64,000 nt of DNA from Liolophura sinensis (lineage: Eukaryota; Mollusca; Polyplacophora; Chitonida; Chitonidae), in assembly GCF_032854445.1 (NCBI RefSeq), contig NC_088303.1, positions 33,487,501 to 33,551,500 on the forward strand, given 5' to 3'. This document shows, in pieces, positions 51,801 to 63,989 of this stretch. The first letter of the stretch is position 1; each line of letters opens with the position of its first letter. Below the pieces are notes generated by a model. The model was given only the letters and a program-made list of their open reading frames with translations. It was not told the DNA's origin and did no database searches. Position numbers and translations under genes: made by a program.

Positions 51801-54800
51801 AGCTATCCATCCTGTTTCATGGGTGTCAAGAATGCTGAAAGGTGACAATTATTTTTAAGAAATTCTAAATCCACGCAATAATAAATAACATTATATTTGT
51901 GTTTACATTAGTTATTACAAATCTAACTTTGTGATATGCAGGCGTATAATTAAACACACTTACTGAGAAAGGCTACTGTAGTTGTTATAAGTAAATCTAC
52001 ATACAGGAACATGAAATCAGACAAGTTCGTCTTGAACTGAAAATGAAAACAAGAAATTTTAAAGTATAAATATTTGATGCTACGTGAATACACTTGAGGA
52101 TGGGAATCTTTGCCATCAAAATCAGCTGCAATTTTCTTCTTCCAGGTGACCCCGTTTTGACCATTTATTTCAAAGATTAGACATTTTGAAAATCTTAATT
52201 TCCCTCAAAATCAGCTGAAAACAACTGAAATTCTCATCTATGGATACTAAATTCCTTAACATAAATGGACCTTGATCTGAAAACCAAAGAATTTTACAAA
52301 TGATTTCAGCGATTCTTCAGATACTCACATTATACAAGATGAGGACGGATGCAAACTGTATCATACTGTAGAGAGCCATGTATTTAAAACAGCCAAATGA
52401 TGTGACCAAGGCAGCTCTTCCTTCCCTGTGCAAATCAGAAAACAACATACAATTTAGCATAGACTAGTGCATTTCTCTTATTTTCTGGTTTCCAATATAT
52501 ACAGCTGCAAATAAAGCAGTATATAAACCACAATTTTTGCACATGTAGCCTATTTTTAATAGTCAAAAAAACGGCAGACAGTTTGTACTATGGTCTTGCA
52601 TGTATTTAGTGTATCATAGTTCTTCAAATTTTTCAATCGCCTCAACAACCACTATTTCAAAACTTTCTGAAAGAACTATGCGGTGCATAGAAATAATTTG
52701 CACAGTTTTAGGAAACTTCCGTCTTAAGTGACAAAAACAAATCATTTTAACATCATTTTGCTACAATGAAAAAAGCTGCTTTAGAAGTCGAAAATGTTGA
52801 TGATTTACAGAAAATTAGCTGAGAATCGAAGACTACACATCATTTACTAGTGAATATGTACAAGGCAGTTGTACACAGCAGCACACAGAATAACACCAGT
52901 ACCTGATGACAGTGGGCACACACTCTATGTTCTGGGTTTTGGAGGTGAAGGGCGAGGCCACAGATGCTTCTGCCTCAGACAGAGATATACCAGCATGGGC
53001 AGTCTTCAGGGCCTGCAGAAAATTACATACGGATTAATTATACAATACATAAAACTAACAGTCAAATACATCATTTCCTTATAACAAAAATACCAATCAA
53101 ACACTGGGGTACTCCTCAGTGAAGAACACTGCCATGGAGACAAGAGAAAATATTGGAATTCAATTTCACATTTTCTCAGTGGAGGGAAAAAAAATAATCA
53201 CAGCAGAAAATTGTGAACATAAGTGGATCCCACTATTAAGGAGAGAAAGAATGGAATGAGGACAAGTGCACTCACCATGCAGTCATTGGCACCATCTCCA
53301 CACATGCCTACTCCGTAACTGCAAACGTGAAACATCCAAAAAGCATGTTTAATACACAAATACATTGTTCACCACACTACAACAGTTTACTTTTCCACTA
53401 TGCATAGCCCGCAAATGAATATCATTTTATTTGTGTGACGAAACTGAATCCGCAACGTTACTCAATGGAAAGCAAACTTCTGTTAATGCCACTGAAAATA
53501 TCTATAGTATATTTTGTGACACAAAACTGCACACGGAAAAAGGCACGTAGTTCACCTTGTGCTCCTTTAAGCCAAAATCAAATCAAATGAAAACATGGTA
53601 AACTCTCTCACATGCACTTTTAACCTTTCACTACAACTAAATGATAGCGCACTCATTTCCATTTTGTTCTAAAAGTCTGAGATTGTGAAAAATCACATCA
53701 TATGACTGAGGCTTTGGAAATGTTTACAGTCATTAAAACGGCATGAACATTTATGTTCCACTAAAACACTTACCCTAAATCCTGCAGCTGCTTCACCAGC
53801 TGGGCTTTCTGTTCTGGTGACATGCGAGCAAATATGGTTCCTCTGGTACAGATCTACAAAAAGCACAAACCAACATTTTATGAGATGTCTGAATGATTGA
53901 CAGACATGTACATTTTCCCCCACACTGTTAAAACCTGCCCAAGCAAAAGCTGTTGCTGCCATATATATGTTTTCTATGTGTCGTCATAGCAGTGCTAAAT
54001 TAAGGGATAATACATTCAGCCTGTCCTATGAGAGAGTCCAGAGTTATTAATACAGCGATAAAGCATCTCATACCATGTTGTTAGCAAGATTGTAGTGGCA
54101 CTTTTCTGCCAAATTCTGGTGGAACTTTTCTGTCAGATTGTGGTGGCACTATTCAGCCAGACTGTAGTGGTACTTTTCTGCCAGATTGTGGTGGCACTTT
54201 TCTGCCAGACTGTGGTGGTACTTTTCTGCAAGATTGTGGTGTCACTTTTCAGCCAGACTGTGGTAGCACTTTTCAGCCAGACTGTGGTGACACTGTTCAG
54301 CCAGACTGTGGTGGCACTTTTCAGCCAGATTGTGGTGGCACTTTTCTGCCAGATTGTGGTGTCACTTTTCAGCCAGACTGTGGTGGCACTTTTCTGCAAG
54401 ATTGTGGTGTCACTTTTCAGCCAGACTGTGGTAGCACTTTTCAGCCAGACTGTGGTAGCACTTTTCAGCCAGATTGTGGTAGCACTTTTCTGCCAGCTTT
54501 TGGTGGCACTTTTCTGCCAGATTGTGGTGGCACTTTTCAGCCAGACACTAGTGGTACTTTTCTGCCAGATTGTGGTGGCATTTTTCAGCAACACTGTCGG
54601 TAACCCTGTAGAGCTGTTATTACGTGTACTATCACAGCCCTCTCTTGTTCCATAAGATTATCTTGAACACCTCTGTACTTCCCTTGCTGGCTTTAATATA
54701 CTACTGCTGGGCATCAAATAATTTGTTTGTCCATAGTCTTAGTTGTTTCAGCTATCAATTCCAGGTAAGTGCTCCCATGTGTTATCACCAATGAATTTTC

Positions 54801-57800: not shown

Positions 57801-60800
57801 AAATAATTACTCTACACAATCTGTGATACAAACTGTCTGCAGTCAAGGATGTGACATTTTGATAGAAAAAGGCAAATTGAAAGAAGACCAAGAGAATTGT
57901 GGGCATCAAATGAAAGAAAATACTTAGTAACCATGTTAACACAACAATGTCCATTTGTGAGATGATGTTACTTTTTATGGCATTTGGCCAATGGACTAAA
58001 ATGTTAAGACACTGTTAAGCCACGGATTAGAACTACCACAGGAAAATCACTCTGTTGTTAAAATGCTATTTACAAAGTCAATAAAACTTTATCAGCTCAT
58101 TCTGCTATACTATGAACATGGCAAACTCCTTGTGAACTTTGACCTGAAACCAGAGCGAGCCAGTTTTAAGATAACCTCATGGAGGAACATGTACCCCTTA
58201 ACTGTACAGAAAAAAGAAATTAATAGAGATGAAAATTAGTGTTTTATGAGCAGGGTCAACTGCCACCCTACCTCTGGGGGAACCTCTGCTTCGCTAGCTG
58301 AGCTGTCAGACGGCATTTCTGCAAACTGCCAGAGTATTGAGGCCTCTTTGTTGGTGACGGGATCGGGAGGGTTTGCATTCACCAGAATGACACGATCACT
58401 GCGTTGTACCATCCCACAATCCCGTGCTACGCTTATAGCCGTCAAGATGTTATCCCCTGCAACACATTTGTCACATATACAAACATATCTCGTCACAGCC
58501 CACTCCTCACTTTATTGCAAGAATGTTAAGACAACCTGATAGAGCATCTTTTCTGTCATGTCCAAAATCCCCCCTCCATCCATACCTCTCTTAGGTGGTC
58601 TGATATTTGTCTAACAACTCATGCTTTCATCGATATTCCTGCCATTTTTTTATGTGAGGAGGAAACCAGAGTAATGGGGAACTTTTATAACTCCCTCCCG
58701 TCTGTATCAAGGCATTCCAAAACTGTGAATTCATGTTCTTTCCTTCATTACATCACAATTATCGATGTACATGTGCTCACAAAACATATATGAACTACAC
58801 ACGCACTGCTACATCACAGAAGAAAACGATGCATTGTACTGTCATTTGGACCTTCTACGTAGCTTGTCCTCGAGTCTCCCATTGTCAAACAGAAGCCACT
58901 GTCAAAAACACCTTAACATCAGACATACGTCAATGGAATGTTTCACCAAAAGACTAATCAAATACATGCTTATGCACCTGCTTGGCCAATCAGAGTTAAG
59001 GTTACAAACCTGTGACCATGACGGTCCTGATATTGGCAGTCCTCAGTTTCTTGATGACTGGGGTGGTTTCTGGTTTCACAGTGTTCCTCATGATCAGAAG
59101 GCCCAGGAAATCCAGGTCGTGTTCTATCTTGTCCCTGGGATAAATTCATTGCCAATCATCGTTAAAATATACAGAACATACACTGGCAATACTTCAAACA
59201 ATACACCCTCTCCAGCCGTACGTGGGAAGGTCTTCCAGCATCCTGCGGATGGTCGTGGGTTCATCCAGGGCTGTGCTTGATCTCTTCCTATCATAATGCT
59301 GGCCTCCGTCGTATAAGTGAAATATGCTTAAGCATGGTGTTGAACATCAATCAAATAAATAAAAAAATAAATAAATCAAACTATACATGTTTATGAAGAA
59401 ATTGTTTATACAGAACCGCTGCAAACCTGTAGAAAGCATACCATTCTCCCATATCTTGTTACTGCTGACACCGTGTTTAACCGTCTGTGTTGCAGCAGCA
59501 AAACATATGCACTACCAGTCTTTGGAGGCAATTACATGTAAGTTCCAGGGCAATTTTGTCATGCTAATTATTGCATTTTGCACCTTCTGAAATTTTCTCT
59601 ATGGCAAAGTCACTAATTTTGCTGGCTTCTGAGAGTTCTATTGAATTTAAAAAAAGGTATTCTGAAGTTTGTTTGGAAGGTAGGATGATATCCTAATGGA
59701 AAGTTTCAAGTTTCAGCACCAAAATTAATATTTCCTAAGTTTTAATTTGCCTTTAAAAATGCACTTTTGAGGGGAAATTTGAAGTTCAATACAATACATA
59801 CTTTACAAAAACGGAAATGTCAGACTGTTTAAAATGTAAAATTAGACACATAAAGATGATATACTGTAATTCTTCAACCATTTCTCATGTTTGCAAGGTG
59901 TTTATTCAAGCATACTCTGAGAAAATTATCCTGTCTTGATGATAAATTATACTTTTTGTGAGGTCCTGAAACTGGACAATTTTACATTAGTTTCATCCCC
60001 AAAATTAAAACAAAATTGTGCATATAGTTGCTCTTTCATCTGCGAACTGATAGAGGAATTAGGGTTGTCATTTTTTGAGCTTTTGGCTGTTAAAGACAGA
60101 CAAAATGTCAGATGGGCCACAAATTTAAAGTGCTGTTTAACCAAAACCACCCCTAGACATAAAAATTAAAATACAATAAATTTTAAAGAAATGAAAATAT
60201 TTTAAAATAAAAGATTATACCTTGAGATTCTCTGTGCCTGATGCCAAGTGAGTTTTGAGTCAAATTCACGGTAAGCAAGGGCAATAACTCTGAACCCTTG
60301 AATTGTATACTGATGTAATACTTCTGGGAAATTCTCTGGTACTGGAGTAACACAGGAAAGGAAAAAAAAGTAACTTCTTTAGTACAAAGAACAACCCATA
60401 AAAAAACCAAAGTTGGATCTGATAATATCACATAACATTTTACACACTTTTATTTAAAAATGGGTAATTCACTCAAATTTGGATTTAAAATAGGAAAGAA
60501 ATGATGAAAAAACACATCTTTACAGACATCAAGTGTAGCAACAGATACTGGCTGTAAAGAAACAATGAGATGGAATGAGCCAACCAAAATAAAATTTTAC
60601 AATATGTAACTGACAGACTATCAAATATTTGGTCTGAAAAACAGAAGATTACAGAGGTGGTTTTCATATTCTAAGCTAAGTGGTCACTCATGATAAGCAT
60701 GTATAACAACAATGTAACAACCATGCGTTGTTGCATACAACGTAACTGGCCTAATGGCTGAATAACAAGTTATTTTTCACGGAATACATCAGTTATTCCT

Positions 60801-63800
60801 TTGACAGTGCACAGCCATTAGTTTATACTGTGGTGGGCAGCATAAAATACACCAAACCATGCAACCAAATTTCACAATTTCTAACTTACCAGTATGTGGT
60901 TTACAAAGAGAGATAATTTTCTCTGGCGCTCCCTTCACATACGCCGACATGTGCGACTGGCCCAATATACGCGCGATGACGCTCATCCTCTGCATGCTGC
61001 TGGAGAAGGTAAACTGACGAACTATCCCAACCTCAAAGGGAGGCTGGATCAAAACCAAAAAAAACATTACTTTGGTTAATTTTCGGGATGAGTGTACATT
61101 TTGTGAAAGATAAAATGAAGAAGTAAATTAACATGAACTCATAGGTAGTTATCATTATCTACATCTTGAAATAACTGTTGTTATTATGAACAGACAAGAA
61201 ATTAATTAAGAAAGTAGAAACAGTTTTGGTTTATTATAAGTTTTGAGCACATTAATCATTGTCAAAATGGACATATGTATACCTATAAACAGATAAAAAA
61301 AATAAATAAAAAGAAAAAAAACAATCTTTCAATAGTTGCAAAAAGTAAAATTATATTGAGCATCTGAAAATTATTATACGTACATGTATGCAGATTTAAA
61401 AAATTAAATTTAAATAAAGGTTTAATTAAAAGCCAAAGTGTGGCAGGCTATAAATTAAAACAAAAGTCATAAGCAAGCACATCACACAAAGGGTTTAAAT
61501 TAGTACAGAAAGACAATTATTAGGCTGTTAAAAAGGAGGGTAACAATGCAATGCAACTGTCTGTTACTTTCCTCTAGTATTTATATTTCAACACAAGCCT
61601 TTTTTTTGCAGACAAGCTCTAAACATCAGATTTGTAATGCAATTCAATAGATTTTTAAACTACTTGTTGAAGGATGTTAGTTTGAAAGAGTTTGCCAGAA
61701 AGCACAACAAGGCCATCTTCACTGATAGAAACAAAGCCATTAAAATTCATAATTTGATTACATGGCAATTTCAGTGATTTTTAAACTTTTTATAATATAT
61801 ATTAATTTACACATTACAGGAAGTAAACCTCAAGATACTTTCTCCTCTCTTTTTCAATTTTCTGTCTTACAATGTTTCTTTTATCAAACAAAAATCTGAA
61901 AGCTTTTCCTGAAAATATGTATACATATTAAAAATGGCAATTTTGCCTACACCAATGACTACATTTTGCAGACTGGCAAAGCAGAGTGGAGACAAAATAA
62001 GGTTGGGAGAATAGTCACCTTGTCAGGTAGACTGACATCATGCATGAATGTGTCTCGTGTACACGGTTTCACAACAGTAGGCATCATCGTTTCAAATTTA
62101 CTAGTATCCTGACCTGGCTCTTCTAAAACCTGAAAATGGACCAGTGGATGTCCTTCCAATTTCAGAAACGGCAAGAAAATGTTGAGCTGAAACCACCACC
62201 CACTAGGGCACACATGAGAACACTGGGCATAATTCTATGCGTAAAAGACATGCCCCTGTACCGAGTCTGTACCAACTTCTTTTGACCTGGGTCCATATTT
62301 ATCATACATCTCAAGACGGTGGCCAAAAATTCAAGCACAGTTAAAATGCTTTGCTGTCGGAAGTTCAAAATTGACACACTGATTCTTTGGTGCAGAACAA
62401 TGTACCATCCACAATTTGAGTTCTTTACGAGTTTGGCTTTTAAGCACTTGCAATTGATGACTTCAGTTGCTTAATAAATTATGAGCCCTGGCGACATGTA
62501 TGAAAGGTTACCTAATTCTCTGACCTTCTCAACCACCACTGTGACCTACATTTTGAAACATTCTGAGAGAGCTATGGGGAGTAGAGAAATAACTTGCACA
62601 ATTTTATTAATCCTGCACCTTTAGTGACACAAACAAATCAATTTTGTCCCCATTTTGATAATAATTGTATAAATAAATTCCACTGAAAAAAGTGCTTCAG
62701 AGGTTGAAAAGGTTGAAGATTCACAGTAAGTAAATGTTCATGTAACTACCATGCTAATGCACCGTAACCCTACAATACCGGGGGTCGCTGAGGAAAGTTA
62801 TCACAGGCCACAAAGTGAATTACAACTGCTAGGGCAAGAGTAAAGACATTTTGTTGCCATGGTAGTTTAAATCTGCGGTGTTGTTAGTCAACATGTCTCT
62901 CAAGAGACTGTCATGATAACAGGTTATCTCTTGAGGCTGGCGATATCTAATCATGTACCAAGAGGCTTGTGAAGGCTGATTATCAACCAAGAGGCTAGTG
63001 ATAACAAATTATCTACCAAGAGGCTAGTGATAACTGATTATCTACCAAGAGGCTTGTGATAACTGATTATCTACCAAGGGGCTTGTGATAACTGATTATC
63101 TACCAAGAGGCTTGTGATAACTGATTATCTACCAAGAGGCTTGTGATAACTGATTATCTACCAAGAGGCTTGTGATAACTGATGCACAATGATATAAACA
63201 GACAACAAAATGAAGTTTGTGAAAGTGTTTTATCACAAAGAAGCAATAACCCAAAGAAAATTATATACCAAAGCAGGCATGAAGCAGACATGAAGTAAGC
63301 AAATGAAGCGAATGCATTACAAGGCCGAATAACAATGTAAGCTTGTGTATTGAGAAATACAAGGAAATGGTTTTGGAAATGCTGTAAAAGGTATTTCAGA
63401 GAATATAGAGGCTACATTGGGCATACTACAAAAATACAAGCAACACACACCTTAATAGGGATATGTGTATACTACATGAGGCAGCAGAATTTACATGAAT
63501 TTTGATGTACACGTTAGTATGAAATGTGAATAACTACACCTGAATATGTATATATTATCTATCCTTGCACAGGCAGAGCCATGCTGCTTAAAAATTGTCA
63601 ACATGTGGCAAAATTACAATGTAACAAAATTTGCATACAAGCCAAATTTCCATGAATTTCTGACACTATTATTATACATAAACATACATGTACCTGCAAA
63701 AACTGCAAAACAAAAGCGCAACAAGCAAATTTGTGACATGCCCCCTAACAGAAGCCTGAAAACAAACAGGAAAAATGCAGAGGTCTAGGGAGTGGACAGG

Positions 63801-63989
63801 CTGAAAGGTTGGATGGGGGTAGGGGGGGAATTTGTTGTGGAGTAAGGATGGGGAGACCTTCACCTGCTGATTACTGTTGTAGGAGGGGTATCCCCGGTAG
63901 AAGGCTCGTGAGCCAGGTGCTTTAGGCTTAACCACAGTGGGCATAAGACAATCAAAGCGGGTTCTATCCTCCCCAGGTTCCTCTATGTC
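48618..63989 (-). CDS. ATP13A3: P5B-type ATPase (ATP13A3-like), 3' half, 17-18 exons
   Basis: P5B ATPases are membrane pumps of endolysosomal compartments that move polyamines and are linked to cation homeostasis. Minus exons: 63989-63864 or 62129-62019 (alternatives), 61043-60890, 60341-60221, 59134-59010, 58456-58272, 57168-57130, 55023-54916, 53853-53774, 53318-53276, 53012-52903, 52425-52329, 52036-51964, 51563-51413, 51164-51016, 50473-50385, 49905-49816, 48803-48618. From 61043 on they give exactly 600 codons. Motifs are [28 protein letters not shown] (nucleotide binding), [30 protein letters not shown] (hinge) and six C-terminal membrane helices. The phosphorylated DKTGT lies upstream of the window. 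It resembles human ATP13A3 more than ATP13A2 (SKLTWH..Q.ISRD). Confidence 0.95.
49596..49770 (-). repeat. Dispersed repeat, copy 1
   Basis: The reverse complement matches 59598-59790 (ttctgagagtgctattga; gggatgatattct; aaaatgcactttt). Intronic; class unknown. Confidence 0.6.
49816..49905 (-). CDS. ATP13A3: ATP13A3 exon (membrane helix 10)
   Basis: 30 codons, phase 0-0: [20 protein letters not shown], then [10 protein letters not shown], aligning with the last helix of the family (VN.FVS...E). Confidence 0.92.
50385..50473 (-). CDS. ATP13A3: ATP13A3 exon (membrane helix 9)
   Basis: Encodes [20 protein letters not shown], then [10 protein letters not shown] strongly hydrophobic helix, in frame on both sides. 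Confidence 0.92.
50800..50945 (-). mobile_element. Family 1 SINE, partial
   Basis: Diverged tail (ttcgactggtgtttttactc) and body (gcagagcctgggggaaactc) in an ATP13A3 intron; the head is absent. Confidence 0.75.
51016..51164 (-). CDS. ATP13A3: ATP13A3 exon (membrane helix 8)
   Basis: Encodes [20 protein letters not shown], then [20 protein letters not shown] and PFRRRIWSN, matching ENT.VF.IS.FQY...A.AFSKGKPFR. Helix M8. Confidence 0.97.
51286..51332 (-). mobile_element. Family 1 SINE tail fragment
   Basis: Only 'tttatttgattggtgtttaa' and 'gtacttaagaatttta' remain. Confidence 0.5.
51413..51563 (-). CDS. ATP13A3: ATP13A3 exon (membrane helix 7)
   Basis: Encodes [20 protein letters not shown], then [20 protein letters not shown] and SYFLIKAQP. 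The LV..RPP.SL motif precedes helix M7. Confidence 0.96.
51964..52036 (-). CDS. ATP13A3: ATP13A3 exon (membrane helix 6)
   Basis: Encodes [20 protein letters not shown], then VAFL. Hydrophobic helix M6; the L.DF.FL..DL pattern is conserved. Confidence 0.95.
52329..52425 (-). CDS. ATP13A3: ATP13A3 exon (membrane helix 5)
   Basis: Encodes [20 protein letters not shown], then [12 protein letters not shown]. Membrane segment M5 follows the REGRAAL motif. Confidence 0.97.
52617..52835. repeat. Dispersed repeat family, copy A
   Basis: Aligns with 62515-62740 in the same orientation (caacaaccacta...; agaaataatttgcac; gtgacaaaaacaaatca; tgaaaaaagctgctt). Intronic in ATP13A3. No coding capacity. Confidence 0.6.
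52903..53012 (-). CDS. ATP13A3: ATP13A3 exon
   Basis: Encodes [20 protein letters not shown], then [16 protein letters not shown], close to [20 protein letters not shown] of human ATP13A3. Confidence 0.97.
53276..53318 (-). CDS. ATP13A3: ATP13A3 exon with GDGAND hinge
   Basis: 43-bp exon encoding [14 protein letters not shown]. It holds the invariant P-type GDGxND motif that coordinates Mg. The residue after NDC is Met (ATG before the donor) where human ATP13A2 and ATP13A3 have Gly. Confidence 0.96.
53774..53853 (-). CDS. ATP13A3: ATP13A3 exon (P-domain)
   Basis: Encodes [20 protein letters not shown], then KQLQDLG, matching GTVFARMAPDQKTQLIE.LQ of ATP13A3. Acceptor 'tttttgtag'. Confidence 0.97.
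54095..54600. repeat. 24-bp minisatellite, about 21 copies, open on both strands
   Basis: Unit 'cagattgtggtggcactttt'+'ctgc' with ctgc/cagc and gtggtggc/gtggtgtc variants. It gives a 186-codon plus frame (ALFCQIVV cycle) and a 153-codon minus frame (SATTIWQK cycle). It lies in an ATP13A3 intron; no evidence supports translation. Confidence 0.92.
54916..55023 (-). CDS. ATP13A3: ATP13A3 exon (P-domain)
   Basis: 36 codons: [20 protein letters not shown], then [16 protein letters not shown], matching YHFAMNGKSF.V....FQDLVPK of the family. Donor 'gttaga'. Confidence 0.96.
56583..56800 (+). mobile_element. Family 1 SINE, 5'-truncated
   Basis: Starts at 'agtctctcaccaatgcggtc' and carries a short internal duplication (cgtgggaaggtacatgggaa). 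Tail ATAAATAAATAAATA. Intronic in ATP13A3, antisense to the gene. Confidence 0.85.
57059..57113 (+). other. G-rich tract with quadruplex potential
   Basis: Several runs of four or more G within 55 bp (gggggggtgg, ggaggggagggg, ggggaggggg). On the ATP13A3 sense strand this is a C-rich tract just downstream of the microexon donor. Confidence 0.7.
57130..57168 (-). CDS. ATP13A3: 39-bp microexon of ATP13A3
   Basis: 13 codons, phase 0-0: [13 protein letters not shown]. Acceptor 'tgtgtttcag', donor 'gtcagt'. It falls in the variable linker between the P-domain segments; skipping would keep frame. It is followed in the intron (sense strand) by a C-rich tract, the complement of the G-rich run at 57059-57113. 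Confidence 0.7.
58272..58456 (-). CDS. ATP13A3: ATP13A3 exon (P-domain)
   Basis: Encodes [20 protein letters not shown], then [20 protein letters not shown] and a Ser/Glu-rich linker ending EVPPE. The donor 'gtaggg' is weaker than its neighbours and lies before the microexon. Confidence 0.95.
59010..59134 (-). CDS. ATP13A3: ATP13A3 exon (N- to P-domain)
   Basis: Encodes [20 protein letters not shown], then [20 protein letters not shown]. It ends in the conserved TVMVTGD motif, split by the intron. Confidence 0.97.
59213..59380 (+). mobile_element. Family 1 SINE, 5'-truncated
   Basis: Body (gccgtacgtgggaaggtctt; atggtcgtgggttcatccag) and tail (gttgaacatcaatcaaataa). Confidence 0.8.
59598..59790 (+). 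repeat. Dispersed repeat, copy 2
   Basis: Counterpart, in the opposite orientation, of 49596-49770 (ttctgagagttctattga; ggatgatatcct; aaaatgcacttttgagg). Confidence 0.6.
60221..60341 (-). CDS. ATP13A3: ATP13A3 exon (N-domain)
   Basis: Encodes [20 protein letters not shown], then [20 protein letters not shown], matching GFRVIALA.R...SKLTWH of ATP13A3. Acceptor 'tactccag'. Confidence 0.96.
60890..61043 (-). CDS. ATP13A3: ATP13A3 exon with KGAPE motif
   Basis: Encodes [20 protein letters not shown], then [20 protein letters not shown] and [11 protein letters not shown]. This is the nucleotide-binding domain. Donor gtaagt, phase 1. Confidence 0.97.
62019..62129 (-). CDS. ATP13A3: ATP13A3 alternative exon, version 2
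   Basis: 37 codons, phase 0-0: [20 protein letters not shown], then [17 protein letters not shown]. Acceptor 'cattttcag', donor 'gtgact'. Either version joins in frame to the next exon starting [10 protein letters not shown]. Using both would repeat the same segment, so mutually exclusive use is likely. Confidence 0.88.
62515..62740. repeat. Dispersed repeat family, copy B
   Basis: Same family as 52617-52835. Lies between the two alternative ATP13A3 exons. Confidence 0.6.
62930..63182. repeat. 29-bp minisatellite, about 8 copies
   Basis: Unit 'gaggcttgtgataactgatt'+'atctaccaa' repeats every 29 bp. It lies in the intron that separates the two alternative ATP13A3 exons. Confidence 0.92.
63864..63989 (-). 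CDS. ATP13A3: ATP13A3 alternative exon, version 1
   Basis: 42 codons, phase 0-0: [20 protein letters not shown], then [20 protein letters not shown] and QQ. Acceptor 'ttttctccag', donor 'gtgaag'. It is homologous to the exon at 62019-62129 over EEPG.D...F...MPTVVKP and diverges in its C-terminal half. Confidence 0.9.

Follow-up and report, generated by a model that had tools for sequence, protein, structure and literature searches.

Two similar exons lie one behind the other in a P5B ATPase gene of Liolophura sinensis, raising the question of whether splicing selects one or the other. The window, that is, the whole 64,000-nucleotide stretch of DNA analyzed here, is contig NC_088303.1 (C9), positions 33487501-33551500. 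The gene is on the minus strand and its 5′ part runs past the window's high end. The adjoining 27.5 kb were therefore added, giving a joined sequence of 91.5 kb (extended coordinates) that contains zero N. Exons in the added 27.5 kb include one with MLTGES, one ending in ICFDK, one starting with TGTLTEDGLD, and one ending in GDPLDLKMFESINW before the donor gtaaga. From the sequence, we consider it probable that one P5B exon was duplicated in tandem, that both copies, A and B, were kept, and that splicing picks A or B to yield two pump isoforms. The relevant features are as follows, in window positions unless stated otherwise.

Ending at 65501 in extended coordinates (C9:33553001), minus strand: upstream exon, ending in ATAAACTGG (NW) before the donor gtaaga, phase 0.
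63864..63989, minus strand: exon A, 126 nt, 42 codons, phase 0-0; 22 shared residues and a 20-residue variable tail.
62130..63863, minus strand: intron from A to B, 1,734 nt.
62019..62129, minus strand: exon B, 111 nt, 37 codons, phase 0-0; 22 shared residues and a 15-residue variable tail.
61044..62018, minus strand: intron from exon B to the downstream exon, 975 nt.
60890..61043, minus strand: downstream (PPFE) exon, starting with CCTCCCTTT at 61043, phase 0, carrying KGAPE; presumed constitutive.
60221..60341, minus strand: next exon after the PPFE exon, starting with (V); first base placed by the AG acceptor.
59010..59134, minus strand: following exon, ending with (G); first base placed by the AG acceptor.
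58278..58456, minus strand: part of the next exon further downstream, read from sequence.

The boundaries of exon A are ...ttttctccag/GACATAGAG...AATCAGCAG/gtgaag and those of exon B are ...tccattttcag/GTTTTAGAA...CCTGACAAG/gtgact. Both exons are GT-AG, stop-free, and phase 0-0, and they lie between a phase-0 donor (W/) and a phase-0 acceptor (/PPFEV). The coordinates, lengths, phases, and splice sites given in the original prediction were reproduced exactly, with a spacing of 1,734 nt. Its statement that either exon joins the PPFE exon in frame also held, as both exons are phase 0-0 and the flanking donor and acceptor are phase 0. A second in-frame GT (AAG/gtctcc) occurs at window position 63858, 6 nt beyond the exon A donor; its use would add Val-Lys.

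Over residues 1-22, A and B are identical at 13 positions and share the framework EEPG....F....MPTVVKP. Their local alignment score of 81 was reached in none of 5,000 shuffles, the shuffle maximum being 46. The identity of 13/22, above all shuffles, bears out the proposal that these are homologous tandem exons, both intact. The second halves had been described as different, and indeed no similarity between the A and B tails after MPTVVKP was detectable in tail shuffles. A degenerate codon pattern for MPTVVKP, ATGCCNACNGTNGTNAARCC, had two exact matches in the 609-Mb assembly, both at this locus; the reversed control pattern had none in the same 609 Mb. In a protein search of the genome using the exon A side as query, exon B was matched weakly (E = 6.3, 21 residues).

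The gene was taken as encoding a P5B-type (ATP13A2-like) ATPase, an assignment made from a spliced piece of 333-338 aa, not from a full-length protein. The motifs read in its exons are ICFDK/TGTLT (DKTG), MLTGES (TGE), and YVKGAPE (KGAPE); DKTG, TGE, and KGAPE are on the motif list in the available text of PMC4033846. The 333-aa spliced B form matched TIGR01657 ("ATP13A2 family polyamine export P-type ATPase") with an E value of 3.1e-132 and 442 bits, to be read against a whole-protein cut-off of 618 and a spliced piece that covers only profile positions 396-711 of 1,055. A PDB search with a 201-aa piece placed ATP13A2 on top (E = 4.2e-48), followed by the P5B structures 7op3/7op1/7op5. The profile match and the nearest structures, both of the ATP13A2 family, are in keeping with the earlier identification as a P5B ATPase. 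A vertebrate subtype name such as ATP13A3 may be unsuited to an invertebrate gene. Exon-wise matches to TIGR01657 also occur at C13:1592650-1624639, which is possibly a P5A (ATP13A1-like) gene.

The same genome contains a second P5B gene at C5:9322042-9333014. In this paralogue, the slot is bounded by introns at identical positions and holds a single 36-codon exon (VLEEPGMEETRFDMMIPTVVRP...); a scan of 9330316-9326397 yielded no second exon copy. Every pair among A, B, and the C5 exon is identical at 13 of 22 residues. For five other exons or exon parts, the comparison of C9 with C5 gave pS values of 0.63-0.96 and pN values of 0.18-0.26, the same range as A-B. These equal identities and overlapping ranges suggest that the exon duplication is about as old as the gene duplication; neither identity nor pS/pN separated the A/B duplication from the C5/C9 split in order. 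Most protostomes have a single P5B gene, according to a figure legend in PMC5837089. In this animal, P5B pumps have diversified both through duplication of the gene (C5, C9) and through duplication of an exon inside the C9 gene.

The candidacy of A and B for exclusive use was evaluated using the rule of WebScipio. As described in the portion of PMC3228551 that was available, candidate exons differ by ≤20 aa in length, are each ≥15 aa, share a frame, and have a relative BLOSUM62 global score of ≥15%. Exons A and B are 42 and 37 aa long (a difference of 5 aa), have compatible frames and splice sites, and in our own implementation of the published scoring gave 0.221 when A was the query and 0.256 when B was, against the limit of 0.15. 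The same scores were calculated for all AG..G[TC], stop-free, phase-0 segments of similar length on both strands of the joined 91.5 kb, amounting to 5,538 segments for the A query (2,764 minus and 2,774 plus) and 7,147 for the B query (3,566 and 3,581). The best unrelated segments scored 0.043 and 0.030, respectively. No third exon copy was found in the surrounding introns or elsewhere in the joined 91.5 kb, and no relatives of the pair were confirmed in viral contigs.

According to the same portion of PMC3228551, 90 of 16,180 non-exclusive exons on the fly X chromosome, in 6 of 1,705 genes, share such features, and re-annotation of predicted exclusive exons to another type was judged unlikely. 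Together with the values for A and B, these frequencies favor exclusivity, without proving it. On this sequence evidence, A and B are very probably real alternative exons and are most likely mutually exclusive.

The alternative that survives best is non-exclusive splicing, whereby B is the default and A a cassette that on occasion joins B or takes its place, with A+B transcripts occurring as well. Each exon has a length divisible by three, the two are well separated, and their sites are GT-AG, so that the gene structure would allow an A+B transcript; B is also the more ancestral-looking exon, keeping WVLEE and scoring 81.4 bits against ATP13A2 versus 69.4 for A. However, A+B would double the EEPG...MPTVVKP segment, and its TIGR01657 score was 431.6 bits, as compared to 438.0 for A only, 442.2 for B only, and 412.8 for neither exon. 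Single inclusion outscores double inclusion by a modest margin of 6 to 11 bits, and a lower score is expected from an insertion of any kind. The general P-type profile TIGR01494 was slightly highest with neither exon (134.5 bits, versus 132.0 for A, 131.1 for B, and 130.3 for both), so the profile argument is that of TIGR01657 alone. Each exon by itself did give a normal-looking P5B nucleotide-binding domain. Given these scores and how few non-exclusive exons have such features (the 90 of 16,180 in PMC3228551), we consider the cassette arrangement unlikely.

Under the preferred reading of mutually exclusive use, a single ancestral P5B exon, encoding the stretch of the N domain that follows the "GDPLDLKMFESINW" segment, would have been duplicated in tandem long ago and both copies retained. 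The splicing machinery would join the upstream exon to A or B, and either of these to the PPFE exon, producing two pump isoforms. The isoforms would have the EEPG....F....MPTVVKP framework in common and diverge in the tail, which has 20 residues in one and 15 in the other and is probably a surface loop. Both exons would appear in mature mRNA, used one at a time, with the choice set by trans-acting factors or short cis elements that act on the two donors, both of which lack a +5 G. Finally, the loop switch would change regulation or partner binding, not ATP contacts.

The exon lengths and splice sites bear on how exclusivity might be enforced. At 126 and 111 nt, both exons are multiples of three; transcripts with both or with neither stay in frame, and enforcement by frame shift and NMD does not apply. 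Steric exclusion is unlikely because 1,734 nt of intron separate A and B. The donors gtaaga, gtgaag, and gtgact belong to GT-AG introns and lack a U12-like TATCC; no U2/U12 clash was seen. In the accessible part of a human survey, 377 clusters (60%) hold exons of a length not divisible by three, steric interference accounts for 57 (9%), and U2/U12 incompatibility for 5 (0.79%); 484 clusters need other regulation, as that survey suggests (PMC5740500). Docking/selector pairing was sought as ungapped helices between the three introns. None stood out, as 37, 17, and 12 of 40 dinucleotide shuffles did as well as the best helix of the respective intron pair. The best helix inside the first intron, like that inside the last, was equaled in 2 of 40 shuffles, and that inside the middle intron in 32 of 40. 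Neither the A nor the B donor has a +5 G, which is missing from 2 of 17 other placeable donors in the two genes (p = 0.035, with small numbers and with one C9 donor, after the EFEV exon, omitted from the count). As a lead only, this would suit regulated, competing donors.

We further evaluated whether both copies have been under selection. Counted over the 22 codons that A and B share, there are 5, 5, and 16 differences at codon positions 1, 2, and 3, respectively (26 of 66 bases). The corresponding pS was 0.93 (13 of 14 synonymous sites) and pN was 0.25 (13 of 52 non-synonymous sites), with a Fisher p of 5.5e-6; site counts were rounded to whole numbers for all Fisher tests. Saturation of the synonymous sites at this pN indicates that the two copies have been under selection at the protein level. 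For A versus the C5 exon, pS was 0.83 and pN was 0.33 (Fisher p = 4.8e-4), from which it is probable that exon A has not drifted freely. The Fisher p for B versus the C5 exon was 3.2e-3.

These data bear on a second alternative, that exon A is a relic or a spurious exon that is out of use. Exon A is without the VL start of the exon, its score against ATP13A2 is the lower one (69.4 versus 81.4 bits), and in a three-way comparison its unique changes had a weak third-position excess (5 of 9, P = 0.14), so the case for constraint on A by itself is drawn mainly from the A-C5 values. Against this stand an open frame, intact splice sites, and agreement at 13 of 22 residues with B as well as with the C5 exon despite saturated synonymous sites, as well as the A-C5 difference between pS and pN. 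Neutral decay was simulated in 20,000 runs starting from exon B, all change being placed on one copy, and survival was defined as an open frame, both splice dinucleotides, and ≥13 of 22 residues. The surviving fraction was 5% with 0.3 substitutions per site and 0.01% with 0.6; with 1.0, none of the 20,000 runs survived. As neutral decay so rarely preserves frame, splice sites, and identity, we regard a relic as very unlikely.

It is similarly improbable that both exons are constitutive, which would give every molecule of the pump a tandem-duplicated segment. Frame and splice sites would allow this, but the C5 paralogue has one copy, the ATP13A2 chains among the alignments listed (five per exon form) have one such segment, and A+B lowers the TIGR01657 score. 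That the pair reflects an assembly artefact, two alleles, or part of a second gene can practically be dismissed. Nothing was found in favor of this, the joined 91.5 kb contain no N, 26 of the 66 core bases are different between A and B, the neighboring introns are unrelated, and in the list of 12 matches to the 201-aa query the other four exons each occur once at the locus.

The introns were also inspected for traces of the duplication. Adjacent introns showed no clear similarity to each other (best E = 0.06-0.09), which fits a duplication long past. The first and last introns share T-rich stretches (best E = 2.9e-5), and the first intron holds a repeat that is also present at C5.

The exons were predicted to encode the variable loop of the N (nucleotide-binding) domain, and this is supported by alignment to approximately residues 584-617 of the 1,180-residue ATP13A2 chain, between "GDPMDLKMVESTGW" and "VSVLHRFPFSSALQRM". 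The exon A tail of 20 residues contains three basic residues and three tyrosines; the exon B tail has 15 residues. The suggestion that splice choice tunes ATP affinity fared less well. The KGAPE lysine is an ATP-adenine contact according to the available text of PMC4033846, KGAPE is encoded by the downstream exon, presumed constitutive, and the two copies show no conservation of the exchanged tail. For these reasons, we favor an effect on regulation, partner binding, or localization over a direct one on ATP affinity. More tentatively, the locus might be a regulated P5B switch in which the N-domain loop is exchanged by tissue or condition, altering regulation, partners, or localization, with an old pair shared across a wide invertebrate clade that would be the first of its kind in ATP13A; we regard this broader proposal as possible rather than probable.

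Comparable exon pairs are known, and tandem duplicated exons occur in approximately 10% of human, fly, and worm genes (quoted in PMC5589949). Mutually exclusive exons of coq-2 have been described in nematodes and other helminths, annelids, and molluscs (PMC7434440). As in the P5B gene, two homologous internal exons exchange an enzyme segment, and the system occurs in lophotrochozoans; in contrast to the P5B pair, whose description is from sequence, the coq-2 pair is supported by RNA-seq and by exon deletion in C. elegans and has a known function, rhodoquinone versus ubiquinone synthesis (PMC7434440, accessible part). Exon 10 of the oyster alternative oxidase (AOX) likewise involves a tandem exon duplication and two protein variants, one copy being nearer the form of other species (PMC5589949). 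Between the AOX copies of C. virginica, 15 of 41 residues are different; unlike the P5B pair, these are terminal exons, chosen via an alternative 3′ splice site, and their expression responds to air exposure; the pair is present in two oysters and absent from the four other molluscs examined by the authors, according to the available text of PMC5589949. In Dscam, 14-3-3zeta, Mhc, and MRP1, as here, lengths, short introns, and spliceosome type do not explain exclusivity (PMC6071210). Docking/selector sequences are described in the accessible part of that paper, whereas the P5B introns show none above shuffles.

The closest relatives by family and domain are the polyamine-transporting ATP13A2/P5B proteins (TIGR01657; PDB 8iek, 7n70, 7op1). 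An ATP13A2 variant without five N-terminal residues is mentioned in PMC4033846, and at least 15 human ATP13A2 transcripts are reported in PMC4573652, in whose available text mutually exclusive exons appear as a general splicing category alongside the discussion of ATP13A2 transcripts. Another paper likewise names this category in general terms and lists ATP13A2 in a table of spliced genes, the event type not being given there. The open-access literature, covered mostly at listing level, yielded no ATP13A gene for which mutually exclusive exons are described, in agreement with the original prediction, which knew of no such case. Likewise, the accessible parts of PMC11765297, PMC13423992, and PMC6025963 contained no clear mutually exclusive pair in another P-type ATPase. 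Exclusive exon pairs are thus already known as a kind; what is new is a probable pair in the ATP13A family, for which the literature searched holds no described case.

The animal can probably make two pump forms with different versions of a single surface loop. Such a naturally occurring pair, preserved by selection, offers a ready-made way to study the role of a poorly conserved loop. As ATP13A2 is a Parkinson-linked lysosomal pump, regulation through the N domain is of wider interest.

Several repeats were noted at the locus. Within the A-to-B intron, a 29-bp minisatellite of 7.9 copies (ATCAGTTATCACAAGCCTCTTGGTAGATA) occupies window positions 62956-63183. A tandem repeat at 54062-54657 is free of stops in several frames of either strand (TVVALFSQ / CGGTFQPD units, ≤197 codons) and is probably a minisatellite, not a gene. 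Finally, an interspersed repeat with a recurring translated motif occurs at window positions ~41680, 47000, 50760, 56600, and 59200, and is present in both P5B loci.
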